Shown one piece after another: positions 40,579-61,803 of a stretch of DNA of 64,000 nt. Below the pieces are notes generated by a model, which saw only the letters and a list, made by a program, of their open reading frames with translations, was not told the DNA's origin and ran no database searches. This DNA is from Blautia sp. AF19-10LB (GTDB taxonomy: Bacteria; Bacillota; Clostridia; Lachnospirales; Lachnospiraceae): the NCBI RefSeq assembly GCF_003461245.1, contig NZ_QTWS01000005.1, forward strand, positions 1 through 64,000, written 5' to 3'. Each line of letters begins with the position of its first letter. Position 1 is the first letter of the stretch. The position numbers and the translations under genes are program-made.

Positions 40579-43305
40579 TCAGTCCACCATCTGTGGCTGA
40601 ACCAGTTTTGCCACTGCCCGAAGTACAAGTTCCGTATTCAGCGGCTTCGCAATGTGTTCGTTCATCCCAGCTTCTTTTGACCTTATTTTATCTTCCGTAA
40701 AAGCATTTGCAGTCATTGCAATGATGGGAATTGTTCTGGCATCTTTTCTGTTCAATCTGCGGATTCTTTCGGTTGCTTCATAACCATCCATCTCCGGCAT
40801 CATGACATCCATCAGGATCGCATCGAAGCAGCCTTCCGCAGATTTTTCAAAAATTTCAAGGGCTTCCCGGCCATTCCATGCCTTTGTCACAACCGCCCCC
40901 GCATTCTGTGTGATAAATTCCACGATTTCCATATTCAGTTCATTGTCCTCAACCAGAAGGATATTCATCCCGGCAATGGAACATACAGATTTCTTTGCTT
41001 TCTGTTCTGCCTCTCTTTTTTCCGCATCAATTTTGAACGGTATCGTGATCACAAATGTAGTCCCCTTGTCCTTCTCACTCTCAAAAGTAATATCTCCGCC
41101 CATTCTTTTTACAAGCGCCATCGTAATCGACATTCCAAGTCCCGTACTGCCATATTTGCTGTAACCGCCGACCCTCTCCTGCGTGAACGGTTCAAAAAGA
41201 TGTTCCTGGAATTCCCGGCTCATGCCAATTCCCGTATCTCTGCAGGTAAATTCGAACACTGCAGTATCACCCTCTGTAGAAATCTCTCTGCATCTCAGCA
41301 TAATCTTGCCATGCTCCTTATTATACTTGACTGCGTTACTTATAAAATTCATCATGATACGTTTTACATAAACCGGACTGCCGATCAGATTCCAGTGGGC
41401 AACTCCAATGTTGTCCTGGGTGATTTCTATTTTTCGTTCCTCCGCCATTTTTTCGATTACTTTAAGAACGCTTTGTTCTATATCATGAAGGTTAAATGGA
41501 ACCTCCTCCAGCATAATCTCACCGGATTCCAGTTTTCCCATATCAAGAACCTCATTGATCAGCTCCAGCAGAAGGTGAGAGGCATCCCTGATCTTTTCTC
41601 TGCATTCTGCCAGTTTATTTATATCATTATGGTAATAATCCGCGACCTCGAGCATCCCGCAGATTCCATTGATCGGTGTGCGGATATCATGACTCATTCT
41701 CCTGAGGAAATTTGTCTTGGCTTCATTGGCACGCTCTGCAGTATCCAGTGCTTCTTTCAGAAGCTTCTGCTGTCGGATTTCAGCCTCCACGACATCATCT
41801 ACATTCAGGAATCCCAGCACAATGATCCCTGAATCCTCGTTTCTGATAACGCGGAACTGATAATAATGAATCTCATCTCCGTTTTTTACCCGGTAGTTGC
41901 CCTTGTACTCTTCTTTTTCCCTGATCCTCTTACGCACATTGCGAAGCCTCAGTACTTCATGCAGCATATCGCGGTCATCCGGATGCACCCGCTCTTCAAT
42001 GTATTTTGCAAGAAACTTCTTATAAGAATAGCTGCCGTCCTCTTTCTTCTTCAGTCCATCTTCATTTCCCTCTTCCTCTTTGATGATCGAGAGCGTTTTT
42101 TCTCGGAGATTCAGAAGATATACATCCCTGTAATTGCTGCTGAGTGTACGGACAATACTGACCTGCGTCTCATATTCCTCCTGTGACCGGGTAATATCCA
42201 CTCCATACAAAAGTCCCTCCAGATGATTATTCGACGGATTTATCAAAAGCCGTACCACGTACTTTGAAATACGTGCAATATTGTCATCATAATAGCATTT
42301 CGAAATTCTCGTTATCTCCACCTGTCCTGCATTGTAGTTCTCAAGCATGGAGTTTCGACAGAAAGCATCGATGAAATCCTGTCTGTCCTGCTCCTTCGGA
42401 ATATACTGTGCCGTATCCCGGACAAACGCATCAATCGTACAATCCGACTCCAGTGTATCCACGATCGCAGATGTTCCACCGGTTTTGAGTATCTTATCAT
42501 CCGTGATATCCAGATGAAAATATCCCGCCGCATGAGAAATGGAACCGATCAGGGAATTCAGTTGATTTTCATATATTTTGCGTGCATTTACATCATTATC
42601 CTCGCATGCGGCAGCGATTACAAAATCCTGCTCATCCTCCGTTTCACCGTTTCTGGTAACCAGAAGATAGTAATAATGCGTCTCTTCTCCTGCACTCCTG
42701 AAATGTACCCTGAAACTCGATGAATTTGCAAGTTTCTGTTCCAGATAATCCAGTTCCATTTTTTTCAGGACGTAGCTGCGGTCATCTGGATGGATATAGC
42801 GGGTAAGATATTCCCTCACTGTATCATAATCCGCATTATCTTTCACAATACTGTTGTCCGGATCATTTGTAAATTCAGAGCGGTAAACAGAAATTGTTTT
42901 CTGCTGACGGTTGACAGAATAAACTGCCACATAGTCCGAAGCAAGCCGATTGACTGCCCCCAGAAGACGCAGAGATTTCTCTCCTGTAGGAATCGCACTT
43001 GACAGTCTCTCTCCCTCTGCAACGGTACTGAAAACCAGTGCATGCCCTCTGCCGCCGTCTGGAAGGATGGTATCCACCGCATCCACAGTCTCGTAAATAT
43101 GACGAATGGGATCCAGATACGTCTTTGGACCACAGATTCCATTGACAACCGGACACGGCGGACATGGTGCATCCAGTCCCATCAGTGCTTTGTAACATTT
43201 CATTCCCATCTGAAGACTCGGATAGATTTCCTTCGCTGTCTCGTTAAACCCAATAATATTGTAATCCCCGTCAATACTGTAATATCCTGATGAATGTGCC
43301 CCCAT
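40579..43305 (-). CDS. Soluble hybrid histidine kinase with Cys-containing PAS domain and receiver
   Basis: A 908-residue protein (start at 43305 with GGAAAGGGG upstream; the longer frame to 43362 reads through a repeat). There are no membrane segments. Order: a PAS-like domain with C37, C48, C51 and C58 (CYKALMGLDAPCPPCP), further PAS domains to about 520, His kinase A with H in SHDIRTPING, ATPase lobe (DTGIGMS, STGLGMSI), and a C-terminal receiver with phospho-acceptor D in LMDVMMPEMDG. It senses an intracellular cue and passes phosphate internally; a partner phosphotransfer protein is not seen here. Its stop codon touches that of the convergent peptidase fragment. Confidence 0.9.
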   Translation of the reverse strand: MGAHSSGYYSIDGDYNIIGFNETAKEIYPSLQMGMKCYKALMGLDAPCPPCPVVNGICGPKTYLDPIRHIYETVDAVDTILPDGGRGHALVFSTVAEGERLSSAIPTGEKSLRLLGAVNRLASDYVAVYSVNRQQKTISVYRSEFTNDPDNSIVKDNADYDTVREYLTRYIHPDDRSYVLKKMELDYLEQKLANSSSFRVHFRSAGEETHYYYLLVTRNGETEDEQDFVIAAACEDNDVNARKIYENQLNSLIGSISHAAGYFHLDITDDKILKTGGTSAIVDTLESDCTIDAFVRDTAQYIPKEQDRQDFIDAFCRNSMLENYNAGQVEITRISKCYYDDNIARISKYVVRLLINPSNNHLEGLLYGVDITRSQEEYETQVSIVRTLSSNYRDVYLLNLREKTLSIIKEEEGNEDGLKKKEDGSYSYKKFLAKYIEERVHPDDRDMLHEVLRLRNVRKRIREKEEYKGNYRVKNGDEIHYYQFRVIRNEDSGIIVLGFLNVDDVVEAEIRQQKLLKEALDTAERANEAKTNFLRRMSHDIRTPINGICGMLEVADYYHNDINKLAECREKIRDASHLLLELINEVLDMGKLESGEIMLEEVPFNLHDIEQSVLKVIEKMAEERKIEITQDNIGVAHWNLIGSPVYVKRIMMNFISNAVKYNKEHGKIMLRCREISTEGDTAVFEFTCRDTGIGMSREFQEHLFEPFTQERVGGYSKYGSTGLGMSITMALVKRMGGDITFESEKDKGTTFVITIPFKIDAEKREAEQKAKKSVCSIAGMNILLVEDNELNMEIVEFITQNAGAVVTKAWNGREALEIFEKSAEGCFDAILMDVMMPEMDGYEATERIRRLNRKDARTIPIIAMTANAFTEDKIRSKEAGMNEHIAKPLNTELVLRAVAKLVQPQMVD

Positions 43306-43335
43306 AAAGTCCCCTTTCCTGTTCCATTCTATTTC

Positions 43336-43358
43336 GTAACTGTTCAGCACCCTCACAG
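43336..43358. repeat. Short conserved intergenic repeat, copy 2
   Basis: GTAACTGTTCAG then CACCCTCACAG, 19 of 23 identical to 16637-16659. An inverse copy of its first half (CTGAATAGTTAC) lies at 43389-43400, so together they make an 11-of-12 inverted repeat in the kinase gene leader. Confidence 0.45.
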
Positions 43359-43450
43359 TCACGAGTCAAAATGCCTCGCGGGATACTGCTTTCTGAATAG
43401 TTACCTAACTGTTTAATACATCGAACTGCATAAACAGTATTATCAATAAG

Positions 43451-46923: not shown

Positions 46924-47020
46924 TTTATAAAAATCCTCTCTCCGTCTTATGCCTTCTTCATCCTGCTTTTATCTGTATACAGAGAACCTGTCCCTGCCAG
47001 TTTTCTTACCCATTTTGCCA

Positions 47021-47058
47021 TTTTGGCATACAAAAAAGAACACATGCCAAAATATGCC
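47021..47058. promoter_or_regulatory. Palindrome in the leader of the riboswitch-controlled kinase gene
   Basis: CATTTTGGCAT at 47021-47031 and ATGCCAAAATATG at 47046-47058 form an inverted repeat about 100 bases before the start codon, between the riboswitch and the gene. It could be the terminator or anti-terminator stem of the expression platform or a protein operator. Apart from this and the riboswitch I see no gene in 46924-47451. Confidence 0.4.
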
Positions 47059-47159
47059 AGTGTCCCTACTACATTTCTTCAAAATCACACATCCGTATAG
47101 TATAAAAGTTATCGAAATCTCTTCCGTTTTCACATCTTTTCTATATATGATATGAAAAC

Positions 47160-47245
47160 AGTGGCAACCGGCTGACCTGGTCAAACTTTTTGACTTTAGC
47201 CCCTTCTGGCTTTGCGTCCCTGCCTTTCAGCAGGTTTGCCTTTAA
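47160..47245 (-). ncRNA. Cyclic-di-GMP-I (GEMM-I) riboswitch
   Basis: On the minus strand the conserved blocks appear in order: GGCAAACC, a short stem with GAAA tetraloop (CTGCTGAAAGGCAG), GGGACGCAAAGCC, then GGGGCTAAAG, and the tetraloop-receptor arm GGTCAGCCGGTTGCC. These are the sequence signatures of the class I cyclic-di-GMP aptamer. It lies 237 bases upstream of the hybrid kinase gene (43717-46923) and starts about 18 bases after the predicted transcription start. No other gene lies between, so that kinase is the regulated target. Whether binding switches expression on or off cannot be read with certainty. Confidence 0.9.
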
Positions 47246-47269
47246 ATAATTTCTATTTTTATCAAAAAC

Positions 47270-47298
47270 AAAATACCATAAAGTTTTCCATACGTCAA
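47270..47298 (-). promoter_or_regulatory. Promoter of the riboswitch-kinase transcript
   Basis: On the minus strand TTGACG, a 17-base spacer and TATTTT preceded by TGG (extended -10). The start of transcription would fall near 47263, just before the riboswitch. Confidence 0.65.
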
Positions 47299-47451
47299 TA
47301 TTGCTGGATAGAAAATCTGTGTATTTTGCGTATGCCAGCCTGCATTGTCAGTTATCGATCGGCTCGCCAAACCACTCACCATAAAATTATTTATTACAAT
47401 TTCACTGGCTGCAAGATGTGGAACCTTTACACCATCTCCTTTTCCACAAAA

Positions 47452-47479
47452 TAAGAGCCTTGCCGAAGCAAGGCTCTTA
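47452..47479 (-). terminator. Terminator of the Pel operon
   Basis: TAAGAGCCTTGC / GCAAGGCTCTTA arms with a CTTCGG-type tetraloop, followed on the minus strand by TTTTG. It lies about 80 bases after the DUF4956 gene, the last gene of the operon. Confidence 0.85.
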
Positions 47480-47558
47480 CTAAGCGTTTTTCTTCGATTC
47501 AAAGAATCTATTCGGCTTGTGATTACCGCATAAATCAACCAGTTATAATCTTTTCATT

Positions 47559-48230
47559 TTATCCATGATACTCTCCATTATACTGGATCAATGTAATATC
47601 TTCTACATTTGTGATCTTCCGGATCCTCTCTGTGAAATCGAGATCATTCTGCCGACAGAATACCTCAACTGCCATCTCTGTTTTCTCCCCACGCATCGTC
47701 TTTGACTTTATGAAATATTTCATTTTTCCAAAGTTGCGGATAATTTCATCACCTGCCTCATCTCCCTGATAATGAATCACTGCGATATAGATCCTGCCCT
47801 TCTGCTGCTTATGATAGAACAAAAAGATCATTGCGATCATCACAACTGCCGCGATCAGAGCCAGCACATACATTCCTGCTCCGGTTGTGATTCCTGTAGT
47901 GATCGCCCAGAAAAGATATAGCAGATCCATCGGATCTTTCACCGCTGTACGGAAACGAACGATAGACAACGCTCCGACCATACCAAGTGAGATCACAATG
48001 TTCGTACTGATCGCCAGAGTAACCATACAGGTAAGAAGCGTCATTCCGACCAAAGTAACCGCAAAGCTTCTGGAAAAGATTACCCCTACATAAAATTTGC
48101 TGTAAACCATATAGATCACCGCTCCAAGAAGCAATGCAATGATCAGCGAAATTGCCATCTTCGGTGCATTAAAGCTATCAAATACGCCGGATTCCAGCAC
48201 CGACTTCTTAATCATATCTTGTATACTCAT
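47559..48230 (-). CDS. DUF4956 membrane protein, last gene of the Pel operon
   Basis: A 223-residue protein with about four transmembrane helices between residues 27 and 140 (LIIALLLGAVIYMVYS, FAVTLVGMTLLTCMVTLA, LFWAITTGITTGAGMYVLALIAAVVMIAMIFLFY), the conserved MVGALSIVRFRTAVKDPMD stretch and a soluble C-terminal domain of about 80 residues. This is the DUF4956 family, often next to VTC-domain and CotH genes. Its start overlaps the VTC gene stop by 4 bases. Biochemical function is unknown. Confidence 0.85.
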   Translation of the reverse strand: MSIQDMIKKSVLESGVFDSFNAPKMAISLIIALLLGAVIYMVYSKFYVGVIFSRSFAVTLVGMTLLTCMVTLAISTNIVISLGMVGALSIVRFRTAVKDPMDLLYLFWAITTGITTGAGMYVLALIAAVVMIAMIFLFYHKQQKGRIYIAVIHYQGDEAGDEIIRNFGKMKYFIKSKTMRGEKTEMAVEVFCRQNDLDFTERIRKITNVEDITLIQYNGEYHG

Positions 48231-48976
48231 AATAGTTTTCTCTCCTGTGTTTCATTCCAATATTCAAATCCATGCAAATACTGCGATTTGTCATAACAGA
48301 GTACATATTTTGATACTGCTGTGAATTCTTGTGCATTTGGTGGAAGCAAGTCACGCACGATCTGTGGAAGCATCTCTGTGAATTTCACTTCCATAACCAG
48401 TTTCCCCGGTTCAAGCACCGGAAGTGTCGGAAGGGACGGATCAAAGATGTCATAACTTCCGACCGCAGCCCTCACATCACTGTCAAATGTAATCCTGACT
48501 GTCCCCTCATCCATGATCCACGGTACACGGTCATAGTCAACGATCGTGCGTGGACGCATGAGATTGCTGACACATTCCACATAAAATTCTCTGCACAACG
48601 GATACGGACTGCTTAACAAAAATTTATAATCTCCATCAAGGATCTTATAGAATTCTTCCTTTGTCAGCGGAGCACTTTCTTTATAAATATAACTTCCGAA
48701 TTTCTTCTTCCGCTCCAGCTTGATCGAACGGTCACTACAATCATAAATACGGATCCTGTATTTTTTTCGCATCAGGACACCAGATTCCTTTTCCGCATAA
48801 GCGCTGTTGAAATAATCTTCAAAATAGAGGCTGCGGATCATATAACCATTTCCCTTTGCATTTGGATCCTTTTTCAGCAAATGCTTCATCCTCAGCTCCA
48901 GCAATTTTTTCTCACTGGTACTGATCAGATATTTCCATTCATTACGGAAGCGTTCTTTTGATAAATCATTCCTCAT
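48227..48976 (-). CDS. VTC-domain protein (polyphosphate polymerase-like)
   Basis: A 249-residue cytoplasmic protein of the VTC family, whose characterised members make inorganic polyphosphate inside a beta-tunnel. Tunnel-lining charged motifs are present: RNEWKYLIS, RSLYFED, RKKYRIRIYD, KLERKKK, RPRTIVDYDR, VRITFDSD, LVMEVKF and SKYV. An ATG 15 bases earlier is in frame; the one at 48976 is favoured by AGGAAG spacing. It overlaps the CotH gene by 11 bases. Sitting between CotH and DUF4956, it might supply polyphosphate or act on another anionic polymer. Substrate is not proven by sequence. Confidence 0.83.
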   Translation of the reverse strand: MRNDLSKERFRNEWKYLISTSEKKLLELRMKHLLKKDPNAKGNGYMIRSLYFEDYFNSAYAEKESGVLMRKKYRIRIYDCSDRSIKLERKKKFGSYIYKESAPLTKEEFYKILDGDYKFLLSSPYPLCREFYVECVSNLMRPRTIVDYDRVPWIMDEGTVRITFDSDVRAAVGSYDIFDPSLPTLPVLEPGKLVMEVKFTEMLPQIVRDLLPPNAQEFTAVSKYVLCYDKSQYLHGFEYWNETQERKLL

Positions 48977-50744
48977 AAATATCTTCCTCAACGTTTTGTC
49001 CGCCTGTAATGTAGAAACATTTCATACCATAATTCTTTCCAGCGTCTGTTACATAATAATCAAAAGCATCCTGCGTCTGTCCAGATGTATTTGTCGCACG
49101 GACACGCACAAAATACTGACCATCTGCCGGAACTGTAGTCTCCGCTTCCGGAATTTGAATATTCTCCTTACGAAATACAATCTCATTAAACTTATAATCT
49201 TTTGCCAGTTCAACTGTGTAAGTGATCGTCTCTGCATCAAAGTCATACGATGCGTCCCAGTTGAACTTCAAAATATTTCCCTCGATTACCGGTTTTCCGA
49301 TAAAAAACGGCATTGGCTTTTCCAGGCTCTCCTTATAAAGTTTATAATTTTGTTCTACCTCTGAAGGGATTGCCGATGCAATTGTTTCATACTTCGCTTC
49401 AGTCAACGGTGCATACATCTGGTCCGGCATCTGATTTAAATACTTCTGAGTAACTGTACGATATTCCTCTATCATACTACTGATCCGATCCACACTGAGA
49501 TAGGATCTCAGATCCTGGATCGCCGCGTCAAGTTCCTCACGGAAATCCTCGGACTGCAGACATCTTTGAAAAAGAACATTTCCCCAGTAATTGCTGACTC
49601 CACATTCCCAACTTTCCTGATCGAAACGATTCTGAATGTTGTATTCGGTTCTCATGAAAGAGCCGTCATTATCCCACGCAATCAGATACCATGTGTCCGA
49701 ATTCTGTGGACTATATAAATATGTATTACGATTCTGTGTATCTACATTTCCGGTCAGTATCTGATACGCCATCCAGTACGTCAGATTTTCTCTGTCAAAA
49801 TATTGATCCAGGATATCCGCAATCGGTTGAGAAATATCATTCAGATCTGTCAGCATTTGAATCAGTTTCGTATGATCTGAATTTCCTTTGATCTCCAGGA
49901 GCTTTTCAAAGGCTTTCTGGTCATAGGTCGGATCGTCTTCTTTTTTTATTACATCTTCATAGCGGAAAAACTCAAACGAATTAATTTTGTACAACTGTCC
50001 TTTCGAATCCATTCCATGGTTCTTCATTCCTGTCTTGTTCAGCTGTTCCACCTGTGTGTACAATCCATAGTCCTGGAATTCTGAGCTGTCCCCCTCGGTA
50101 AGATCTCTTACATATAAATGTACGAACTGAGTTCTAAGAGACATCAGCTGCGGTATCCCTTTCAGAAGATCGTAGGACAGCTTATTACGGAAACGCATTC
50201 CCTCTGTCTGATGTTTATTCAGATTGATTGTGCGCTGTCCACGCCAGGTTCCTTTGTTCTTCTTCAGCTCAATCTTGTAGTTTTTCTGTGCATTACGGCT
50301 TGATGTCTGTCCTCTGATCTGCACAGTAGCATTCGGCACATTTTCACCATATCCAACCTCCCCGCTCTGCGGACCTGACTCATCACCAACCTGAAGAAGC
50401 GCCGCTGTCTGGTAACGGTCTACTCCCATCTTGTCATAATCATAGGCCGAATAACTGTTGATCTCCTTCCAGGTGTGATCCGTTCCCTCTGAAGAATTTC
50501 CGCGGGAAACGGTGAGATACATCGTCACAACACTTGTCTCGTCATCATTTTCATAGAGACTATCCTTATCCCTGAGGTGAACGTCGTTGATATCCTGTGT
50601 CTCTGCCTTTTTTATCTCTTCCTGTTGTTCTGTCTGTTTCTTTGAAGTATCCCCTGTTTTCTCCGGGGTGGTACATCCCGTCAGGCAACAGGACATTCCT
50701 AATAAAAGGGCACATACCAACGCAAGTAATTTATATTTTTTCAA
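48966..50744 (-). CDS. CotH-family lipoprotein (protein-kinase-like)
   Basis: A 592-residue secreted lipoprotein: signal peptide with lipobox LTGC at about residues 21-24, a Glu/Lys linker, then the CotH domain (about 130-430) with the motifs VQIRGQTSSRNAQKNYKIEL, KLSYDLL and the metal-binding LIAWDNDGSF, and a C-terminal fibronectin-III-like domain (ILKFNWDASYDFDAETITY ... YFVRVRATN). CotH proteins are atypical secreted kinases that phosphorylate spore-coat or surface proteins. It overlaps pelG by 14 bases, so it belongs to the Pel operon. Inference: it may modify matrix or cell-surface proteins outside the membrane. Confidence 0.83.
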   Translation of the reverse strand: MKKYKLLALVCALLLGMSCCLTGCTTPEKTGDTSKKQTEQQEEIKKAETQDINDVHLRDKDSLYENDDETSVVTMYLTVSRGNSSEGTDHTWKEINSYSAYDYDKMGVDRYQTAALLQVGDESGPQSGEVGYGENVPNATVQIRGQTSSRNAQKNYKIELKKNKGTWRGQRTINLNKHQTEGMRFRNKLSYDLLKGIPQLMSLRTQFVHLYVRDLTEGDSSEFQDYGLYTQVEQLNKTGMKNHGMDSKGQLYKINSFEFFRYEDVIKKEDDPTYDQKAFEKLLEIKGNSDHTKLIQMLTDLNDISQPIADILDQYFDRENLTYWMAYQILTGNVDTQNRNTYLYSPQNSDTWYLIAWDNDGSFMRTEYNIQNRFDQESWECGVSNYWGNVLFQRCLQSEDFREELDAAIQDLRSYLSVDRISSMIEEYRTVTQKYLNQMPDQMYAPLTEAKYETIASAIPSEVEQNYKLYKESLEKPMPFFIGKPVIEGNILKFNWDASYDFDAETITYTVELAKDYKFNEIVFRKENIQIPEAETTVPADGQYFVRVRATNTSGQTQDAFDYYVTDAGKNYGMKCFYITGGQNVEEDIYEE

Positions 50745-52200
50745 GCTTATCTCCCCTCTCTATTTTCTCTTCCAAAAAGCATCCAAGCCGTGTGAAGAAA
50801 CCTGTTTTATCCTCTGCTACAATCGGCTGTACACTCAAAATATAATACGGAAGTTTTTTTATAAAATATCCAAGACGCAGTGTACAGATCAAAAAGAACA
50901 CTGCACTTCCCAGCAAAAATCCAAACCCATAATACACCTGTGGGAAGAATAAAGACACACAGGTAAATGTCGTCGTACACGCGGCGAACATTCCTGTTGC
51001 AAATAATGCTCCTTTGTAATCTGTAAAATAAAGTAAGATCAACATCATTGTGTTAGCAATTGCATAGAGTCCATAGCCGACACAGAGTGTACGGAAATAT
51101 CCTTCCATAAGATCATTAAATCCAAGCGGAAGATATGTCAGAAGCAGCTGTCCGATCGAAATCGCCAGTGCCGTTGTAAGTAGCTGCTTTAACGCCGTAT
51201 ATTTCAGCTCCATGTTTAAAACCTTTCTCATCTCATTTCCCGCCTGCAGGATATCCTTGATTTCTCCCTTGTCATTAAACAAACTATAATAATTCCGATA
51301 TTTCGGATAGAAATTCACTTCCACAGATACAACGAAATTAACGGTTGTAATAAGAATCGTCAAATAGGCGATCATCGCAGGTACATCATGATACGGTGCA
51401 CCATAAAATAATCCCTGAACATGTACACGGATCGGTCCGCACCACATGATAACAAGATGTGCAAATAGTCCGATGTTCGTGAACAAGCCTGTAAACGCAA
51501 GCGGAAGGAACTGATCCACCCAGCGTAAAAAGAAAAATGCACTGATCTCTCTCTGCGGAAAATAACGGTACAACAGCGTCACATCCCAAAGCAGCATAAT
51601 TCCATAACCGATCGTAACTGCGATCATCAACGCCTCTACATGTGGAATCCCAATCAGGATCAATAGGAATCCGACCAACAATGATACCGCTACCGCTGTA
51701 ATAAATGAAATAAGAATCCCTTTGTAATCCTTGATCGCTGTCAGATAACTCATCGCATTCCAGGTGACGATCAATTCTCCGAAAAACTCCAGGCACAAAA
51801 ACTGATCGATCAGATTGATTCCTGAAAACAGAAGAAAAATCCCATACATGATTCCGCCGACTAAAAGCAGGATCGCTGTTGAACCCCAGAAAGAAGAAAG
51901 CACCGCCTCGTGGCGTTCTTCATACAGCATATCCGCAATATATCTCGTCACGACCATAGAGAAGAAACTGGTCACGGTCAACGAAGCGAGAAGTGTGTAA
52001 GTAATCATACAGTTCAGAAGTTCCCGGTTATGTCTCGTCGCACCGGTATGATCGCAGATAAAAGCGATTCCTACCAACAGCACGATACCGAGCAGCATCG
52101 GACCTGTACAGATCACTCCTGCATACCCATACGCTTTTGCCGTCGCTGCAAGTCCGCGCTTCTGGAATAATTTTTTTAACTCAAATCCGATTCCGGCCAT
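50731..52200 (-). CDS. pelG: Pel polysaccharide transporter PelG
   Basis: A 489-residue membrane protein with about twelve helices, starting MAGIGFELKKLFQKRG as PelG proteins do. The frame is open 14 codons further upstream, but the PelG start at 52200 with AGGAGGTGG in front of it is clear. It belongs to the MOP flippase-like group and would move the growing Pel polymer across the membrane with PelF, PelD and PelE. It overlaps pelF by 20 bases and cotH by 14. Confidence 0.9.
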   Translation of the reverse strand: MAGIGFELKKLFQKRGLAATAKAYGYAGVICTGPMLLGIVLLVGIAFICDHTGATRHNRELLNCMITYTLLASLTVTSFFSMVVTRYIADMLYEERHEAVLSSFWGSTAILLLVGGIMYGIFLLFSGINLIDQFLCLEFFGELIVTWNAMSYLTAIKDYKGILISFITAVAVSLLVGFLLILIGIPHVEALMIAVTIGYGIMLLWDVTLLYRYFPQREISAFFFLRWVDQFLPLAFTGLFTNIGLFAHLVIMWCGPIRVHVQGLFYGAPYHDVPAMIAYLTILITTVNFVVSVEVNFYPKYRNYYSLFNDKGEIKDILQAGNEMRKVLNMELKYTALKQLLTTALAISIGQLLLTYLPLGFNDLMEGYFRTLCVGYGLYAIANTMMLILLYFTDYKGALFATGMFAACTTTFTCVSLFFPQVYYGFGFLLGSAVFFLICTLRLGYFIKKLPYYILSVQPIVAEDKTGFFTRLGCFLEEKIERGDKLEKI

Positions 52201-53605
52201 CTGCCTCTTCCACCTCCTGATACATCTTCCGGTACTTTTCAATCATTTCTTCTTTTCGATAATATGCTTTCACTCGTTTCTGTGCCTTCTCCCCCATGCG
52301 GAGTCTCCGAGCTCTGGAAGCGCACATCTGATCCATTGCCTGCGCGAGCCCCTCTCGATACATCGGTGGAACACAATATCCTGCTGTTCCGTATCGATCC
52401 TCCTCATTACCATTCAGAAGCTCCCTGCAGCATCCTACATCTGTAGTCACACAAGGCCGCCTTGCAGCAAATGATTCTAAAACAGACAGCGGCTGTCCTT
52501 CCGATATACTCGTCAAAATTGTAAAATCCAGCTTCTCCATATAAGAGATGATATCCACTCGTCCTGTAAAGATCACATTTTCCAGATGAAGCTGATCGAC
52601 CAGCGCATAACACTCCTGCGCATACTCCTCATCATCGACGCCTCCCATAATGTGGAGACGCACATGTTCTCTTGTCGTGCAAAGCTCATAAAACGCATAG
52701 ATCATCGTCTTGATATCCTTGATCGGTGCCAGACGCACGATCGCACCGATGTCAACCCATCCGTCTTCCTCTTTCAATGGAATAGGGGAAAGCCTTTCAT
52801 AGTTGATTCCGTTCTCAACGACACGACATTTCTCCTTGTCACATCCCATCTGGATCTGTGCATGCATGGCATTGGTAAATAATGCTGAGACTAGAAACGC
52901 TCTCGTATAAATAATATCCGACAGCATATAGAAGAAAGAAATCCACTGCTTTTTAAATGCCGGCTGTACCCATTTTGCACGAATGATCTCTTCTTCACGC
53001 TCTCTTGTGTATATTCCATGCTCTGTCAGCAGCACTTTCTTCTTATAAACATACCCGCCCAGGCATGCAAGAAGTCCGCCATATCCTGTACAGATTGCAT
53101 GATAGACATCTGCCTTGGGCACTTCACTTCCCATTAGATAAAAGACCGGAAGCAGCATAGAACGCATTGTGTGAAATGCATCCGCAAACGGAGTATATGG
53201 ATAATCTTTTATACAGCACTCCGTCAATATATTCAGGAATTCCTCACTTCTTAAAAAAGACATAGGATTCAGCTTCTGGTCATGATAGAGCCGAAACAAG
53301 ATTTCCCAATTCGGGCGTCTACACAGCATCAGCTCTTTCAGGCTGTTCGTCTCTTCCTCTGTAAAGGCATGAAGCATTTTTCCTGAATCCTTCAGCCGCA
53401 AGGCGTCATCCAGAAAGACCTCGTGAACTTCTACAACATTTTTCGGAAGCTCGTAGACAAATTTCCCTTTATCCTTCGCATTTGCCCCAATCACCCACAG
53501 AACAAACTCATGCTCTTTCATTTCATTGATATACTGGTGCATCCAGGTGGATACACCTCCAAATATGTAGGGATAACACCCCTCCAATATGAGACAGATT
53601 CTCAC
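52181..53605 (-). CDS. pelF: Pel glycosyltransferase PelF (GT4)
   Basis: A 474-residue cytosolic GT-B glycosyltransferase. It opens with ICLILEGCYPYIFGGVSTWMHQ, a PelF hallmark, has LTEHGIYTREREEE mid-protein and the GT4 donor motif E-x7-E in SISEGQPLSVLE. In characterised systems PelF polymerises UDP-sugars for the Pel polysaccharide. It ends inside the start of pelG and follows the deacetylase gene by 39 bases. Confidence 0.92.
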   Translation of the reverse strand: MRICLILEGCYPYIFGGVSTWMHQYINEMKEHEFVLWVIGANAKDKGKFVYELPKNVVEVHEVFLDDALRLKDSGKMLHAFTEEETNSLKELMLCRRPNWEILFRLYHDQKLNPMSFLRSEEFLNILTECCIKDYPYTPFADAFHTMRSMLLPVFYLMGSEVPKADVYHAICTGYGGLLACLGGYVYKKKVLLTEHGIYTREREEEIIRAKWVQPAFKKQWISFFYMLSDIIYTRAFLVSALFTNAMHAQIQMGCDKEKCRVVENGINYERLSPIPLKEEDGWVDIGAIVRLAPIKDIKTMIYAFYELCTTREHVRLHIMGGVDDEEYAQECYALVDQLHLENVIFTGRVDIISYMEKLDFTILTSISEGQPLSVLESFAARRPCVTTDVGCCRELLNGNEEDRYGTAGYCVPPMYREGLAQAMDQMCASRARRLRMGEKAQKRVKAYYRKEEMIEKYRKMYQEVEEADGRNRI

Positions 53606-53644
53606 AATTAACTCCTTATCTGTCGCGTGTTACCGCTTTGTATT

Positions 53645-55489
53645 TCAATCTTCTAATTTCTCGATAGTTACTGTTGGTTCCTTTGCCTGAAGCAGATAGA
53701 GATTTCCTGTCAGATGTGTAAGTTTTCCTCCCGAAACTTCACCCGGTGTTCCTTCATTGATCCTCACCATAAAATATGCTTCATCATAGAAGTTTTTAAG
53801 CTTCAATTCTATAGACTGCTCTGTCACTGTCTTTGTAAATGTAACCGCTCCATAACGCTGAATCGCACCGGATAGTTCCGAACCGGTGAGTTGTCTCAAG
53901 GACGGTGCCGAATCCACCAGCCAGTCCATATATTCAGCGAGGTTGCTCTTCATCTTTTCCCAGCCAAGTGCTGCACCGCGGTCTTCGTCCAGAAGATCAT
54001 CCGGATGAATAAAATGACTGTTCACAAAATGCATATTTAATTCCGACAGTGCCGCCATCTTCATATAATCATCGATAATTGCACCGGAGATGATACGCGG
54101 CTGTTCTACAATCCCATCCTTTGCAACTTCAAATTCCTGCACATACGCAAACTCACCGGTGAAATAATTACTGGCGATCGTCCGGATCTCCGGGAAATCT
54201 TTCGCGAGCATCTCTCTTCCTTCTGCTGACAATACATTGGACGGCGGTACATAGACTGACATTGATACACTGGGAAATGTATCCTCTCCAAAATGGATCA
54301 ATTCTTTTACAGCCTTTTTCATGGCCGCCTCATTTTTCCATGTATCATACGGAAGCACGTCACCATAATCCACATTTGAAAGACTCAACGGCTGATGATT
54401 GTATCCATGATACCCGAGTTCTCCACCTTGATGAAGCAGCATATTTCCAAAATACTGAAAACGTCTGGTATCCTTCTGTTTCTTAATCGTTCCATCCGTC
54501 GCATCCTCATAATTTTCAATAATCACACCGGTATAGCGAATGTTGTGATCGGATGCAAGCTCCTGCATATCCGGCCACCACACATCCATATAGAAATCAC
54601 TAATGCTCATTCCATAGTCCCGCTTCACATAAGTAGCATCTCCCTCCGGAACCGGTGATGGAAAGTCATCCAGATAAAATGCTGATCCATTGATCACCGG
54701 ATAAACCCCCACATCAGTAAGGAGACTGTAGGAAGCCGCATAGAATCCACGCACCGCTTTCTCATACAGTCCAAAGTTGTCTACTACAAACTTCCCTTTT
54801 CCATATTGGTTTTCCCAGATCAGCGGCGCTCCCTTTTCATCTCTGATTCTCGCATATACCTGTGCTTTTTCGCTCAACTCGACCGCCCAGGCAGCATCAT
54901 ACGGATCTGTGATCGTATAAGCCTGTCCCCCGCCAAGCATAAATTCCGGTTCAAAATAAATACTGTCTACAAGTGTATTGTCATATCCGGAAGAAATGAT
55001 TCCAAGCTTCTGCTCAATCACTGATGAATACGCTGTTTTCTGAAGTGTCAGGGCAAAAAGTACATTCCCACCCTCTGACACCCAATCACACAGTTCCATA
55101 AGATTCTCTTTCAACGGACTTACATCACTCAGTAATACAACAACCGTTTCATAAGCATGATAATCTGGAATAGAGGATGCACTCTGCAGGTCTACCACAT
55201 CTGTTCCAACCTTCATATCTTTAAAAATTTGTTGAAACTGCTCCCATGCAGCCACACTCGCCTCATCTTCACTGTTACGAAGTACCAGACAGGTCTTCGG
55301 CAGTGATTTCGCAGCCATCTGTTCCGTAACCACTTCTTCCTGACTGAGATATGCGACTTTTCTGTCTTTTTCAGTATATTGAATTCCACTTCGTTCAGCA
55401 AAAAGGACGACCGCGATCATCAGAAATACACCCAGGATCACCAGCATACTTTTAAACGGAAATGTTTTCAATGATTTTAATCCAGCCAA
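53645..55489 (-). CDS. pelA: PelA-like extracytoplasmic deacetylase (DUF2194)
   Basis: A 614-residue protein with an N-terminal membrane anchor (about 14-31) and a large extracellular part. Deacetylase-type metal and catalytic residues are visible: D274-D275 in FYLDDFPSPVPEG and H361-x3-H365 in GYHGYNHQP. The middle contains a Rossmann-like domain resembling a glutamine-amidotransferase fold (TVVVLLSDVSPLKENL). No glycoside hydrolase domain is obvious, unlike Gram-negative PelA, which fits the separate deacetylase (PelADA) of Gram-positive clusters. It would partly de-N-acetylate Pel and make it cationic. Its start overlaps the pelE stop by 13 bases. Confidence 0.82.
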   Translation of the reverse strand: MAGLKSLKTFPFKSMLVILGVFLMIAVVLFAERSGIQYTEKDRKVAYLSQEEVVTEQMAAKSLPKTCLVLRNSEDEASVAAWEQFQQIFKDMKVGTDVVDLQSASSIPDYHAYETVVVLLSDVSPLKENLMELCDWVSEGGNVLFALTLQKTAYSSVIEQKLGIISSGYDNTLVDSIYFEPEFMLGGGQAYTITDPYDAAWAVELSEKAQVYARIRDEKGAPLIWENQYGKGKFVVDNFGLYEKAVRGFYAASYSLLTDVGVYPVINGSAFYLDDFPSPVPEGDATYVKRDYGMSISDFYMDVWWPDMQELASDHNIRYTGVIIENYEDATDGTIKKQKDTRRFQYFGNMLLHQGGELGYHGYNHQPLSLSNVDYGDVLPYDTWKNEAAMKKAVKELIHFGEDTFPSVSMSVYVPPSNVLSAEGREMLAKDFPEIRTIASNYFTGEFAYVQEFEVAKDGIVEQPRIISGAIIDDYMKMAALSELNMHFVNSHFIHPDDLLDEDRGAALGWEKMKSNLAEYMDWLVDSAPSLRQLTGSELSGAIQRYGAVTFTKTVTEQSIELKLKNFYDEAYFMVRINEGTPGEVSGGKLTHLTGNLYLLQAKEPTVTIEKLED

Positions 55490-56370
55490 AAAGCCAATTC
55501 CTCCTTACTCTTAGACGACAGATAGATCTGCTCCTCTTTCATCTGTCTTAAACACTGCTGCAACTCCGCTCCCTTTTTTCGTTCTGCCAGATACCGGATC
55601 TTCAAAATCCAGAACTCCTCTTTCCGATGCCATTTCTGATCCATCAGCCCTAGAATCTCTTCCGCCTGAACATAATCTCCTGTTTTCATCAGATTTTGGA
55701 ACAGACGCACACATGTGGAAAGCGTCGTTTTCACCTTCAGCTTTTGTCTTAAAAGACGGATATAATGTTTCCTCTGTTCTCTCTCCATCTGGGCTTCCAG
55801 AATCCCCTGATTCAGATACTCTTCCATAAAATCACAGTACTGCTCCAGGATTTCCGGATCGTCCGGTGATGCCGCATACAGCTTCTCCATCTTCTGCAAA
55901 CGAAAATCATATTCCTTGGAAAGTTCAACCATGGCTGTGATCGCATAATGGACAACCTCTACATCTTCATTCATGCGGGCCTGTTTCAGAAGATCCATAT
56001 ATTCTTCCGGATCATCATTTAACACATCCATGATCAGTTCACGGCGCACTCTCGGTTCGTTAATCAAAAGTGCTTCCTCTAACGGAACGATCTTTTTGTC
56101 CGTATCCGAAACTGCCTGAAAAATATTTTTATAAATCTCTTCATTTACACGAAGCTTTTCCACTCCCGGTTCTATCCTATTGTCTCTTCTGGTCAGCATT
56201 TGCAAATGCAAAAGCAGCACGCACACTGTTCCCCAGAAAGGAACGAAGATCACAAGTGCCATCAGATATTTTTTCACCTTCAGCAGATGTGTCTTTATCC
56301 CCAGCCAGACCAGCACACAGCAGACAATATGCAACAGGATCAGGAATACTCCAAGCACTGTCTGAATCAT
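55477..56370 (-). CDS. pelE: Pel complex membrane protein PelE
   Basis: A 297-residue protein with two N-terminal transmembrane helices (about 4-24 and 33-58) and a cytoplasmic all-helical region of HEAT/TPR character to the end (for example EEYMDLLKQARMNEDVEVVHY, DYVQAEEILGLMDQKW). Position between pelD and pelA, topology and length match PelE of Gram-positive clusters, which scaffolds PelF, PelG and PelD. It overlaps pelD by 4 bases. Confidence 0.82.
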   Translation of the reverse strand: MIQTVLGVFLILLHIVCCVLVWLGIKTHLLKVKKYLMALVIFVPFWGTVCVLLLHLQMLTRRDNRIEPGVEKLRVNEEIYKNIFQAVSDTDKKIVPLEEALLINEPRVRRELIMDVLNDDPEEYMDLLKQARMNEDVEVVHYAITAMVELSKEYDFRLQKMEKLYAASPDDPEILEQYCDFMEEYLNQGILEAQMEREQRKHYIRLLRQKLKVKTTLSTCVRLFQNLMKTGDYVQAEEILGLMDQKWHRKEEFWILKIRYLAERKKGAELQQCLRQMKEEQIYLSSKSKEELAFWLD

Positions 56371-58478
56371 AATTTTTCTCCTGTATTTGCATTCTCCACG
56401 GTATCGATCTCATGACAGACGAAGCCGTCATTTTCCAGTCTTGCAAGAATGATCGGCAAGGAACTTCTGTCCGTCTGTGAAAGAATGAGGAAGAGCTCTC
56501 CTTTTTCAGAAATCCCCCAGACATCATTTTCACGGACCGAAGCCTGTAGCGCTGTGTCTGCCTCTTCCAGTGTCATCTTCGGATACTCCAGCTTCAAAAG
56601 CACATAGGATGCCCGATTCTCCTCCCTCATAGAATGGAAGGAATACAGCCGTTCTTCAAAATACTCCTGCTTCAATATACGTGTACCCTGCACGTACTGC
56701 CTGTTCTTGATTGCCTCCTGATATTCCAGTGCGTGCAAAAGTGCTGTTTCTACCAGACCGCAGAGAATCTGGAACAGATTCAGATAATAGAGGGAAAGCT
56801 GTTCATTTCCCACTTCCTGAATGAAAATCAGCATCACGAGCTCTCCATCCTTGTGAATCCCGTTCATATACATCGGATAGCCGTCCAGGAAATTCCGGTT
56901 TACCCACACCTTTCCTGACACAATCGTCTCTTTCGCTTCCAGATAATCATCCAGACAAATGGATTTTTTCAACACATCTGTCATTCCCTGGGATGCGATC
57001 TCAAGACGTCCATAGCTCTGATTCTTTCCAACTGAATAAATCGCAAATGTATGATTCTCAAGAACTGATTCCATCACATGCAGAGTTTCAACAAAAAGCT
57101 CCTGCGGAAGAATGATATCCAGTTTTTTCGTAATATCAAAAATCTTACCAAAGCTGTCACGGCTTCCCAGAATCTGCTTCTTGTACTGCCGTTTATCAGA
57201 AAGCGTCTCCTGATACATTTCTCTCATAAACAGAAATTTATCCAGGATCAGTTTATTCTCCTCTTTCATGAATTGAATATTATCTCTGTTTTTCAGTCGG
57301 ATGTAACCACAGATCGCGCCGACTGCAAAATAGAAGATAAACGGAATCCAGTTCGAAGGTTCGTAGAAAAGTGTCGTCCAGCCGATCCCGGTTTTCGTAT
57401 ATGCTGCCAGCAATGAAAGTGTTTCCAGCCCCGCTGCAGCAAGCCCGTAATTAATGCCGTACAGACTGCTGAACAGCACGATGTAAACAAGCCTCAGATC
57501 GATCATCTGAAACTGCACCTGATTTCCCGCCATCCGGTTCAGTGCTTCAAAAACAAAAAATGTGAGCAGCAATTCCACGATTTTCACGATTTTATCATGT
57601 GCTTTCAAAAAAGTTTTTACTACATCGATCTTCCGTGTCTTATGGTTCGTTTTCTCACAATAATCCTCATAAATTTCTGTGAGATCCTCCAAAAGAGAAA
57701 TCTTCGGAAACCAGCCGTATTCATTTCTCAGAACGTGGTCATCAGATATCCCATCCTGGATCAGCACATCTGACAAATAGGTAATATTTGCAGCCGGAAA
57801 CATCTGTGCCAGTCTCTCCCCGAACTGTTGAAAAGTAAAATGAAATACCTGCGGAACCTGAAGACAGGCGCTCCCCTCTCCCCAGTTATCAAAAATCTTG
57901 TATAATAAATCCCCAAGATCACTCAAAGCAAGAAAATGCATCTCCTGTGCCGGTGCTTCTTCAAATGTAATCTGCTTCTTATTGATCACAGTTGAGAACA
58001 GCTTGAAAAAATAATCCTCCTCATAAGTACCGGAATAAAGATACGGCACACGCAGAATCTTGACAGCGATCTGATGCAGCTCGCCGTATTGCCTGCAGAA
58101 CTCTTCTGCCGAGCGGACCATCAGCGTATTTCCTGTTGTATCTTCATATAAACTATCCGGTCCTGTAATATACAGAAGCCTGGAATTCAGATTCCCCTTA
58201 TAGTAATGTAATAGCTTGTGTAAAGTCTCAATCTCACCCTCCATCGTCCCATGAAATGTAAGATAATTAGAAAAATAAATCACTCCCTCAAATTCATACG
58301 TCTTGAAAATGTCTTTGAATTCTTCCTCCGTCTTCGGCATCGGGTATACCGATAAGCTCTTATTGCGATTTGACTTTTGTTCAGTCTCTCCAAGAAGAAG
58401 GATCTGACACTCAGGGAAAGCCTCCTCGATAAATTCTGTTGTAATATATCCGATATTTCCGGTCACCAGTAATTTCAT
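56367..58478 (-). CDS. pelD: PelD c-di-GMP receptor with N-terminal SDR-like domain
   Basis: A 703-residue protein. Residues 1-275 form a degenerate nucleotide-sugar epimerase (SDR) domain (KLLVTGNIGYI at the start; no clear Y-x3-K). About four transmembrane helices follow (roughly 300-395), a coiled stretch, a GAF-like domain (about 440-590) and a degenerate GGDEF domain. In the last, R649-E-N-D652 is exactly 5 residues before EKGEL, the position of GGDEF, which is the spacing of an I-site. PelD binds c-di-GMP there and turns on polymer synthesis. SDR fusions to PelD are known from Gram-positive clusters. It follows the cyclase gene by 52 bases. Confidence 0.85.
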   Translation of the reverse strand: MKLLVTGNIGYITTEFIEEAFPECQILLLGETEQKSNRNKSLSVYPMPKTEEEFKDIFKTYEFEGVIYFSNYLTFHGTMEGEIETLHKLLHYYKGNLNSRLLYITGPDSLYEDTTGNTLMVRSAEEFCRQYGELHQIAVKILRVPYLYSGTYEEDYFFKLFSTVINKKQITFEEAPAQEMHFLALSDLGDLLYKIFDNWGEGSACLQVPQVFHFTFQQFGERLAQMFPAANITYLSDVLIQDGISDDHVLRNEYGWFPKISLLEDLTEIYEDYCEKTNHKTRKIDVVKTFLKAHDKIVKIVELLLTFFVFEALNRMAGNQVQFQMIDLRLVYIVLFSSLYGINYGLAAAGLETLSLLAAYTKTGIGWTTLFYEPSNWIPFIFYFAVGAICGYIRLKNRDNIQFMKEENKLILDKFLFMREMYQETLSDKRQYKKQILGSRDSFGKIFDITKKLDIILPQELFVETLHVMESVLENHTFAIYSVGKNQSYGRLEIASQGMTDVLKKSICLDDYLEAKETIVSGKVWVNRNFLDGYPMYMNGIHKDGELVMLIFIQEVGNEQLSLYYLNLFQILCGLVETALLHALEYQEAIKNRQYVQGTRILKQEYFEERLYSFHSMREENRASYVLLKLEYPKMTLEEADTALQASVRENDVWGISEKGELFLILSQTDRSSLPIILARLENDGFVCHEIDTVENANTGEKL

Positions 58479-58530
58479 ACGTCACCTCGTAATCATATAT
58501 TGCACATTTCTATCATTTCCAACCTATCAT

Positions 58531-60123
58531 TTATGCAGAAGATGTATTTTCTTTTATCCTCTTTTTGTCTTTATACATCTTCTCGTCAGCACAATGGATC
58601 AGCTCCGGCAGATTCTTTTCCTCCGCATCTGTCCAGGCATATCCCATTGCAACAGAGATAGGAATGTCACTTTGTTCATCGGCAAATTCAATCTCCGCTC
58701 TGACTTGCCTTATGATCTCTTCTGTTTCTTCGGCTGTCTTGTTTTTCAGGATAATCACGAACTCATCACCGCCGATTCTGTAACACTGACCGTTCTGTCC
58801 AACGGCAGCTCTCATACACTTTGCGATTGTGATAATAAGCTCATCACCTTTATTATGTCCCAGGCTGTCATTTATCTTCTTCAGATTGTTGGCATCCATC
58901 ATTATGTAGGAAATCATTCCCGGGAAAACAGCATTACTCTTGTTCTCCTCCAGAAATGCCGTTCTGTTTCCAAGACCGGTCATCGTATCCATATAGGCCA
59001 TTCTTGCATAGATCTCGACATTGGCATTCTCCTGAACCTGCTCATACATTACGATACAGGCTGCATTGATCAAAAATGCGATAAATATCGCAATACCGAC
59101 CGAATAGATATAGGAATAGCTCACTACATTTCCATAATAAAATAAAACGAGTGCTATAATGCTGAAAACGCAATATGCTACACATCCATTAATAACTATT
59201 TGCAATTTAAGATTTTTATGCTTTTTGTTCTCATTGACCCCATTCCAGATCACGCGCAGAAGTGTTACTGTCATAAGCAGATGTTCACAGATAAGTATTA
59301 TGATCACCATATCACATCCGCTGATATAATTTAACAGATAAAGGACTAAGTTAAAAACAAACAGCTTACGCATCACGGACAGCATCCTGTGTTTACCCGG
59401 CATGATCTCTTTGATAAATTCCAGAAGAGGGAACGGCAATGTGAAAAAGGACAAGAATGATATCTGCTCAATAATACTGGTGTGCTGAGTGACTAACAGC
59501 AAAATCTGTGAGTCTGTCACCACCCAGATTCCTTCGGTCAAAATACAGATTCCCAAATTCCGCAGTGCACGGTAGATCTTCTCCGTTTTTCCCGCTTTCA
59601 TATAAAGACAGGCGACAATACACAGCACACCAAAAGCAAGCGACAGCACACCGATAAGCACCGCATAAAGGTTATCCTTTATGATCCGTCTGTACATACT
59701 GGTATTGTCTCCTATCAATATCCCCGAGCTCTCAATGCCTTTCAGATTATCTTTCGTCCCACCGATAAAGCTGATCGTCAAACTGTCTCCTGATGGAATA
59801 TCAAACAAATGCACTGATCCATCTCTTTTTCCGTTCCTGTGATAGATCGTCTCATTGCCCACACGCACATAATAATTTTTCCAATGGGATCTGAGAAGCA
59901 GCACCCATTCCTCGTGCTCTCCTCTATCTGATAGGCTGAAGGTGACCTCCGCCTTCGTAACACCGTCGAAAGCATCAATCGTCCACTCACCTTCCGGAGC
60001 ACTTACTTTTCCTGTAAAAACTCTGTCGGGAGCATTCTCATATCTCCCGCAAATGTATAATGCAGCTACCATAAAGAAGATAATTATAAGAGTAACTGCA
60101 GTATGTATCTTTTTCATAATCAT
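58531..60123 (-). CDS. Membrane diguanylate cyclase (GGDEF), first gene of the Pel operon
   Basis: A 530-residue protein: an N-terminal membrane helix, an extracellular beta-rich domain (about 35-150), seven or eight transmembrane helices (about 160-375, 7TM-DISM-like) and a C-terminal GGDEF domain with RIGGDEF at 449-455 and MDTMTGLGNR at its front. Substrate-binding residues are intact. The four residues where an I-site RxxD would stand read G-Q-N-G, so product inhibition is unlikely. It should make c-di-GMP for PelD encoded next. Ribosome site is weak (GAGAG). The promoter and a palindromic leader lie just upstream. Confidence 0.92.
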   Translation of the reverse strand: MIMKKIHTAVTLIIIFFMVAALYICGRYENAPDRVFTGKVSAPEGEWTIDAFDGVTKAEVTFSLSDRGEHEEWVLLLRSHWKNYYVRVGNETIYHRNGKRDGSVHLFDIPSGDSLTISFIGGTKDNLKGIESSGILIGDNTSMYRRIIKDNLYAVLIGVLSLAFGVLCIVACLYMKAGKTEKIYRALRNLGICILTEGIWVVTDSQILLLVTQHTSIIEQISFLSFFTLPFPLLEFIKEIMPGKHRMLSVMRKLFVFNLVLYLLNYISGCDMVIIILICEHLLMTVTLLRVIWNGVNENKKHKNLKLQIVINGCVAYCVFSIIALVLFYYGNVVSYSYIYSVGIAIFIAFLINAACIVMYEQVQENANVEIYARMAYMDTMTGLGNRTAFLEENKSNAVFPGMISYIMMDANNLKKINDSLGHNKGDELIITIAKCMRAAVGQNGQCYRIGGDEFVIILKNKTAEETEEIIRQVRAEIEFADEQSDIPISVAMGYAWTDAEEKNLPELIHCADEKMYKDKKRIKENTSSA

Positions 60124-60154
60124 TCTCTCTTATAATATTTTTTGCCATTCCGGC

Positions 60155-60199
60155 AGAAATAATCGCGTCAGCATAACTGCTGGATTATTTCTGATTATA
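60155..60199 (-). promoter_or_regulatory. Promoter -10 and operator-like hairpin of the cyclase/Pel operon
   Basis: On the minus strand TGGTATAAT (extended -10, 60194-60202) is followed at once by a palindrome: AGAAATAATC / GATTATTTCT outer arms (60155-60164, 60183-60192) and CAGCA/TGCTG inner arms. It covers the expected transcription start and 5' end, so it may be an operator or an mRNA 5' stem. No regulator can be named. Confidence 0.5.
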
Positions 60200-60268
60200 C
60201 CATAGATTCTCATTTTTGAGTTTATTTTTAGAATAAAAATCCAACACAGTAATAAAGGGTGGTAAGTC

Positions 60269-60391
60269 ATGAACGAAAATGAGCAGAAAGTCGGCTCAAT
60301 CGCCGATCAAAAAAGTAAGATAAGGTAACGTTATAAAGGAATCACCCCTGATGAACTTGATGTGATTCCGGCTCTTCCGCAGGAAAATATC
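60269..60391 (+). pseudogene. N-terminal remnant of a serine recombinase gene
   Basis: From ATG 60269 the frame reads MNENEQKVGSIADQKSKIR, a TAA, then RYKGITPDELDVIPALPQEN. The RERYKG...LDVIPA pattern is how many Clostridia large serine recombinases begin before the catalytic domain; the TAA would be one base change from GAA. Homology stops near 60391 and the catalytic domain is absent. Confidence 0.5.
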
Positions 60392-60549
60392 AGTATCCGC
60401 AGTGCTGGATTTTCGTCCACAATTCTCATTGCTTTCACCTGGAGTTCACGATATTCTGAGTGATTCTTTTTCAAATACTTAGTCACCCATTTCTCCACTG
60501 ATTCCCGTAGTGTACTTTGTTCCCACATGATGTCCTGCTTTTTTCGCAT
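60392..60549 (-). pseudogene. Truncated small ORF beside the recombinase remnant
   Basis: From 60549 a minus frame reads LRESVEKWVTKYLKKNHSEY and RELQVKAMRIVDENPALR, helical and protein-like. After about 60400 it runs into antisense of the recombinase remnant, so the natural C-terminus is lost. Small helical ORFs of this kind commonly accompany Lachnospiraceae mobile elements. No function is assigned. I see nothing else in 60200-60268 or 60550-60690. Confidence 0.35.
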
Positions 60550-60686
60550 ATTGCATTTCTCCCTTCTGAAGTTCTCTTTTCAGTTACATGACTATACCAG
60601 AAGTCGTGGAAATAGCAATTCATCAGATGTACCGAAAATGCGTGGAGGAGATTGGGGATAGTAGACAATATGGGGATATTTGGGTA

Positions 60687-60716
60687 AAAGAAAAGCCATG
60701 GCTTGTGCCGTGACCT
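60687..60716 (-). terminator. Probable terminator of the SipW/TasA-type operon
   Basis: On the minus strand a stem AGGTCACGGC / GCCATGGCTT (one mismatch) with ACAA loop is followed by TTTTCTTTT, about 20 bases after the stop at 60737. Confidence 0.55.
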
Positions 60717-60736
60717 CTCAATTCATATTTGCTGTC

Positions 60737-61714: not shown

Positions 61715-61740
61715 TTTCCATCCCACCTTTTTCAGTTTCT

Positions 61741-61803
61741 ACATGCCAAAAAGTAGAAATTCTTTTCTACTCTTTGGCATGTACCCCACGCCACAACCGT
61801 GGG
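61741..61803 (-). repeat. Two hairpins between the SipW/TasA-type genes
   Basis: CCCACG/CGTGGG (61785-61803) and a long ACATGCCAAA..AGTAGAAA / TTTCTACT.TTTGGCATGT stem (61741-61782). Neither ends in a T-run. They probably protect or attenuate the message between the two genes. Confidence 0.55.

Follow-up and report, generated by a model that had tools for sequence, protein, structure and literature searches.

Gram-positive pel operons have been described in Bacillus cereus ATCC 10987 (pelDEADAFG) and in clostridial and streptococcal types, and the clostridial ones are already known to encode a PelD with a degenerate epimerase domain as well as CotH, polyphosphate polymerase, and DUF4956 proteins (PMC7112168). 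According to that source, binding of cyclic di-GMP (c-di-GMP) by B. cereus PelD requires R363, D366, and R395, the acting cyclase of B. cereus (CdgF) is a separate, named gene, and DUF4832 is replaced in bifidobacteria by a gene for a dual cyclase/phosphodiesterase. In cmrRST of Clostridioides difficile (PMC6837544), a c-di-GMP riboswitch stands ahead of a two-component system and acts as a positive switch; the system has two response regulators and also an invertible element. Here we analyzed a 64,000-nt stretch of DNA from Blautia sp. AF19-10LB (NZ_QTWS01000005.1; hereafter the window), in which a pel operon led by a diguanylate cyclase gene (60123-47559) lies beside a c-di-GMP-I riboswitch and a hybrid histidine kinase gene, all on the minus strand (Table 1). 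The operon has the gene order of the described Gram-positive types and their degenerate GGDEF domain with an RxxD I-site, and shares with the clostridial types the degenerate epimerase domain in PelD and the CotH/polyphosphate polymerase/DUF4956 accessory set, but differs from the B. cereus and bifidobacterial arrangements in its leading cyclase gene. The riboswitch-kinase unit differs from cmrRST in its class I aptamer, its one hybrid kinase, and its apparent spread across genera.

An earlier interpretation of these letters (the sequence-only reading) had joined the parts into a single circuit. All of them are indeed in their described places within 13 kb, and the half of the claim that sets a cyclase next to a likely receptor, PelD, stands, as this pair is kept in the nearest genome; the half that makes the riboswitch and kinase part of the pel circuit does not. 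We consider it likely that the window holds two neighboring but independent c-di-GMP modules, and judging from sequence comparison the look of a single circuit is probably a coincidence of neighborhood, because the riboswitch-kinase seems to be a unit of its own that moved from genus to genus and came to lie beside pel. In the first module, the membrane cyclase of the pel operon would make c-di-GMP, PelD would bind it at the I-site, and PelD, PelE, PelF, and PelG would make and export the polymer; cyclase activity, binding, and activation are predicted here by analogy with B. cereus and Pseudomonas aeruginosa. The second would be a horizontally spreading c-di-GMP-I riboswitch and hybrid kinase with its own promoter, in which c-di-GMP binding would favor the leader terminator and reduce kinase transcription. 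The adjacency of the two would be a rearrangement, seen in the window only, and they would share at most the cellular c-di-GMP pool. On this reading a gut anaerobe has one likely module, its pel operon with a cyclase built in, and the unit next to it is a chance neighbor.

Synteny and spread of the riboswitch-kinase unit

We compared the window with 299 genomes from 298 genera, the nearest of which is G001. PelG over the cut-off is carried by 51 of these genomes, 17 of which have c-di-GMP-I aptamers. Homology to G001 splits between the two units: positions 47530-63779 match its pel region (95-98% nucleotide identity), and positions 43715-47300 match G001 1600909-1604487 (94%), on the same contig as its pel operon and 0.5 Mb away. 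Of the 41 aptamers listed for the 51 pel genomes, none is found less than 20 kb from pelG (the smallest distance is 44 kb, in G271), a count limited by draft contigs and stricter filters. On this synteny we rejected an integrated circuit, in which cyclase, PelD, and riboswitch-kinase would have been co-selected and the kinase would feed back on matrix production, and regard it as improbable. Its arguments are that all parts lie on one strand within 13 kb and that a stretch of 392 bases at 60388-60779, which precedes the cyclase and holds a small open reading frame (ORF), is found in G001 upstream of the riboswitch-kinase (94%) and partly in G264 and G103 (3 of 8 searched genomes including G001); its presence at both loci hints at past recombination and thus some shared history. 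Apart from the missing adjacency elsewhere, two observations speak against this circuit: the 22-kb pel locus of [Ruminococcus] faecis, which from 10 kb before pelD to about 1 kb past the operon end contains no GGDEF gene and no riboswitch, and the kinase unit itself, which seven other genera carry at different sites, independent of the position of pel. Within the window, moreover, a likely terminator hairpin, at which transcription would end after pel according to folding, and the promoter-like site of the unit lie in between. It counts against two independent modules that the adjacency could still be functional in the window's own lineage.

The break in homology to G001 falls just between the two units, and a metagenome assembler could be misled by the near-identical copies that several gut genera carry, so that the adjacency might be an assembly error between such copies. 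We think this very improbable: there is no direct sign of a join error, and positions 47351-47300, just upstream of the promoter-like site, resemble the sequence that flanks the unit in G264 (92.5% over 47351-47191), as would be expected if the unit is real and brought its flank along.

Two modules brought together by rearrangement are also what the distribution of the riboswitch-kinase unit suggests. Its DNA is matched at 93-95% in 7 of the 299 genomes, each of another genus (G001, G160, G192, G119, G028, G264, and G233; partial or interrupted in the last four), which places the window cassette in at least eight lineages. Among these seven genera the kinase gene is 92.9-97.7% identical, compared with 76.3-82.0% for rpoB loci (best single alignment, 3.0-4.3 kb), and this holds for all 21 pairs. 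Judged by these identities, riboswitch and kinase are a unit that spreads horizontally between genera. A longer form is present in G001, G119, and G264, where the kinase is followed by a solute-binding protein and a second hybrid kinase; these extra genes do not follow the kinase in the window, G192, G160, or G028. In G192, the kinase is directly followed by some 250 bases from the end of the longer form, as if the middle had been lost by recombination. The G233 kinase is truncated, and an integrase-like gene resembling the Tn916 type ends shortly ahead of the aptamer there. Five of the eight copies have an intact aptamer (window, G001, G192, G160, and G233), and in three it is damaged or replaced: G264 and G028 lack its 3' part, and G119 has a different leader in its place. 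We call the G264 and G028 aptamers damaged and not absent because the former still scores 42.4 bits (cut-off 35) and G028 has one aptamer match with an expectation value (E) of 3.4e-6, its place within the genome not being shown. Such natural copies make the switch directly testable. The transferred unit is the newer part of our finding, the pel operon being of known type; among open-literature titles, we found none on a mobile riboswitch-kinase unit or on a cyclase-led pel operon in Lachnospiraceae. By its movement between genera, gut bacteria could acquire sensing that is under c-di-GMP control.

Table 1. Features of the pel operon, the riboswitch-kinase unit, and the kinase gene that follows it (positions of the 64,000-nt stretch).
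Feature	Position	Strand	Basis
Leading gene of operon: membrane diguanylate cyclase with intact GGDEF, I-site absent	58531..60123	-	Pfam GGDEF 106.6 bits; motif alignment
PelD with epimerase-like N-terminal domain, membrane part, GAF, and a degenerate GGDEF carrying an RxxD I-site	56367..58478	-	Alignment; Foldseek of models
PelE, assigned by position	55477..56370	-	Gene order and relatives in other pel loci; no Pfam match
PelA-type deacetylase protein (DUF2194; partial DUF2334)	53645..55489	-	Pfam
PelF glycosyltransferase	52181..53605	-	NCBIfam PelF 319.6 bits, cut-off 100
PelG	50731..52242	-	Pfam PelG 466 bits, cut-off 29
CotH-type kinase protein	48966..50744	-	Pfam
VTC (polyphosphate polymerase type) protein	48227..48991	-	Pfam
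DUF4956 membrane protein, last gene of operon	47559..48230	-	Pfam
Likely pel-operon terminator hairpin, 14-bp stem	47450..47481	-	Folding, -26.6 kcal/mol for 51-base stretch
Promoter-like TTGACG-17-TATTTT of riboswitch-kinase unit	47270..47298	-	Consensus scan and conservation
c-di-GMP-I riboswitch aptamer	47160..47250	-	Rfam RF01051, 73.6 bits
Leader terminator with U run (expression platform)	47031..47066	-	Conserved in aligned copies keeping leader; folding
Hybrid histidine kinase, PAS-HisKA-HATPase-REC-REC, 1068 residues	43717..46923	-	Pfam
Second hybrid histidine kinase, directly after first	40579..43362	-	Pfam

The pel operon, its cyclase, and PelD

The operon opens, as the sequence-only reading had it, with a diguanylate cyclase. 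Pfam and alignment agree on an intact active-site motif (RIGGDEF) in this predicted enzyme, and the alignment contains no RxxD at its I-site position. The gene is separated from pelD by 52 bp on the same strand. The pair is retained in G001 with a similar 52-bp gap, where a cyclase 96.6% identical to that of the window likewise heads the pel operon, which argues against the view that the cyclase is a chance neighbor of pelD and renders PelD no particular service. That view is unlikely but has some basis: G001 is the only one of the 299 genomes with a close full-length relative of the cyclase, and the closely related [Ruminococcus] faecis pel operon has none. Matches of 30-33% identity in three other genomes were too distant to be counted as orthologues; relatives at 71-96% exist in the protein database, their gene neighbors not being known. 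A GGDEF gene is present in 5 of 46 scanned pel loci (L035, L042, L067, L069, and L071). In three of them, L035 (G001), L042, and L071, it shares the strand of the mapped PelD part and is at most about 1.6 kb upstream; in L069 it is about 6 kb upstream. The L042 and L071 genes, which also speak against chance, encode proteins only about 28% identical to the window cyclase. Because of this distance and the count of 5 in 46, a cyclase before pelD appears from sequence to have more than one origin, yet to be rare. Among 40 window proteins, short ORFs left out, Pfam found no EAL or HD-GYP match.

PelD itself matched neither Pfam nor NCBIfam. A genome scan with its sequence alone gave zero matches, and a second, alignment-based scan gave PelD matches in genomes that include Blautia schinkii (52%) and [Ruminococcus] faecis JCM 15917 (78%). 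When the alignment was searched against PDB sequences, epimerase-type chains were the only matches (E up to 1). In the alignment, RENDVWGISEKGEL places an RxxD in register with the degenerate GGDEF domain, and R649, D652, and R680 are invariant in all 12 aligned sequences, the window's included; by spacing, R680 would be the counterpart of the third B. cereus binding residue. The I-site claimed earlier for PelD is thus confirmed, but the GGDEF domain is degenerate rather than missing, and structural models add an N-terminal epimerase-like domain (Foldseek). The full-length model is weak (predicted local distance difference test, pLDDT, 59) and matched sugar-nucleotide epimerases and also GGDEF proteins; we therefore preferred a model of the C-terminal part (pLDDT 73.9), whose best Foldseek match is P. 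aeruginosa PelD (4etz, E 2.3e-7; 4dn0, E 2.3e-6). As in that protein, an RxxD I-site lies in register with a degenerate GGDEF domain, as expected for a Gram-positive Pel operon. The two differ in the epimerase-like domain that the window protein adds and share 13-16% identity, and the low template modeling scores (TM-scores) of 0.37 (4etz) and 0.30 (4dn0) tell against the assignment. VIA-align ranks GAF and GGDEF folds at the top and PelD (4dmz) at 42, tied with many. By analogy with the characterized proteins, PelD is a likely c-di-GMP receptor, its binding being predicted.

Of the remaining genes, pelF and pelG are assigned by family matches far over the cut-off. The PelA-type protein matches DUF2194 (575.8 bits) and DUF2334 (37 bits) but no hydrolase family, as a deacetylase-only form would; from its position, DUF2194 would correspond to PelADA. 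The CotH, VTC, and DUF4956 genes extend the operon past pelG, and the proteins of the cyclase-pel block are 96-99.8% identical to those of G001. By its gene content this operon is a further member of the known Gram-positive type, with Pel as its predicted polymer.

The riboswitch leader and the direction of switching

A c-di-GMP-I riboswitch had been placed ahead of the large hybrid kinase gene beside the 3' end of the operon, and the covariance model agrees: RF01051 matches in the kinase's own leader (cut-off 35, E 1.5e-12) and is the sole family over its cut-off in the window. Between 43000 and 64000 there is no second c-di-GMP riboswitch; E up to 1 adds sub-threshold drum and istR matches only. 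Pfam finds PAS, HisKA, and HATPase_c domains in the kinase, together with two receiver domains in the same chain, and no NCBIfam kinase family was over its cut-off among the matches listed. The TTGACG and TGGTAT of the promoter-like site are kept in G001, G192, G160, G264, G028, and a paralogue. All intact leaders contain a hairpin with a run of U residues. In the window this hairpin is about 95 nt past the aptamer; a 75% paralogue in G264 retains a hairpin at that place with different paired bases.

We folded the five intact leaders with and without the aptamer pairs of Rfam imposed, in an equilibrium calculation that leaves out tertiary contacts. With the aptamer imposed, the terminator probability was 0.98-0.99 in all five (window, G001, G192, G160, and G233); without it, the values were 0.67, 0.98, 0.04, 0.32, and 0.63, respectively. 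Imposing the aptamer thus raises the predicted terminator probability in four of five leaders, which indicates an OFF switch: most likely, c-di-GMP favors the leader terminator and lowers kinase transcription. The opposite arrangement, an ON switch through which c-di-GMP would raise kinase expression, fits these four leaders poorly and seems doubtful, even though the C. difficile riboswitch raises expression of the kinase operon cmrRST (PMC6837544) and the predicted terminator of G001 is independent of the aptamer. An OFF switch behind a promoter of its own also has evidence to answer. The G001 terminator forms equally without the aptamer, counter to a simple OFF switch, promoter-like sites are near their number in shuffled sequence (56 versus 44.3, standard deviation 7.0; consensus scan), and the consensus scan lists neither the hairpin at the end of pel nor the leader terminator. 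The C. difficile riboswitch, Cdi-2-2, is presumably, from its name, a class II aptamer.

Riboswitch-kinase pairs in other genomes and neighboring features

To see how widely c-di-GMP-I riboswitches precede kinases, we merged tandem copies among the 41 aptamers of the 17 pel genomes into 38 units, and counted a unit as paired if a hybrid-kinase gene started within 3 kb downstream on the same strand. This was so for 16 of the 38 units, all from five genomes, where such pairs make up 16 of 20 (G026 5/5, G264 4/5, G119 3/4, G001 3/4, and G192 1/2), against a background of 2 in 583 gene units at 40 pel loci. The kinase often stands behind a solute-binding protein gene. Pfam and our own kinase profile disagree on two units, G264:C20, a PAS fragment near a contig end without a kinase core, and G026:C9, whose kinase starts at 2,995 bases. 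Among 40 further units of the family, five had a hybrid kinase: 2 of 35 chosen roughly by score among the matches listed, hence non-randomly, and 3 of 5 chosen for earlier kinase or cassette matches. A family-wide rule that c-di-GMP-I riboswitches control kinases was therefore rejected, and the pairing is a feature of some lineages. There is about an even chance that gut Lachnospiraceae-type bacteria exchange c-di-GMP-gated sensor cassettes, of a type with a c-di-GMP-I riboswitch ahead of operons for a hybrid histidine kinase and a solute-binding protein, and that the c-di-GMP level decides which sensors are built. If so, repeated aptamer damage would turn gated kinases into ungated ones.

GGDEF genes lie within 3 kb after a c-di-GMP-I riboswitch in 2 of the 38 and 5 of the 40 units (e.g. 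L198, G023:C32), where feedback on c-di-GMP synthesis is possible. Elsewhere, tandem c-di-GMP-I aptamers precede long ORFs: three before an ORF of about 1490 codons (L182, G263:C26:727-987) and two before one of about 1550 codons (L177, G141:C55:81965-82292).

Several further features of the window were observed. The kinase part of the second hybrid kinase shares 60% identity with one from a G264 operon that a riboswitch heads (L195), and between the two kinases (43332-43405) lies a stretch of about 42 bases with many scattered matches in G001 (about 80-95%), like an interspersed intergenic repeat. Just past the DUF4956 gene, drum RNA matches 47479-47562 on the minus strand at 39.7 bits (E 2e-4), short of its cut-off of 43. 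A 3856-residue ORF on the minus strand (21216-32786) has no Pfam match. Upstream of the cyclase, three genes on the minus strand (60737-63874) match neither Pfam nor NCBIfam; their N-termini, which in two of them end in STYAWFV-like stretches, resemble those of secreted fiber proteins of the TasA/camelysin type.

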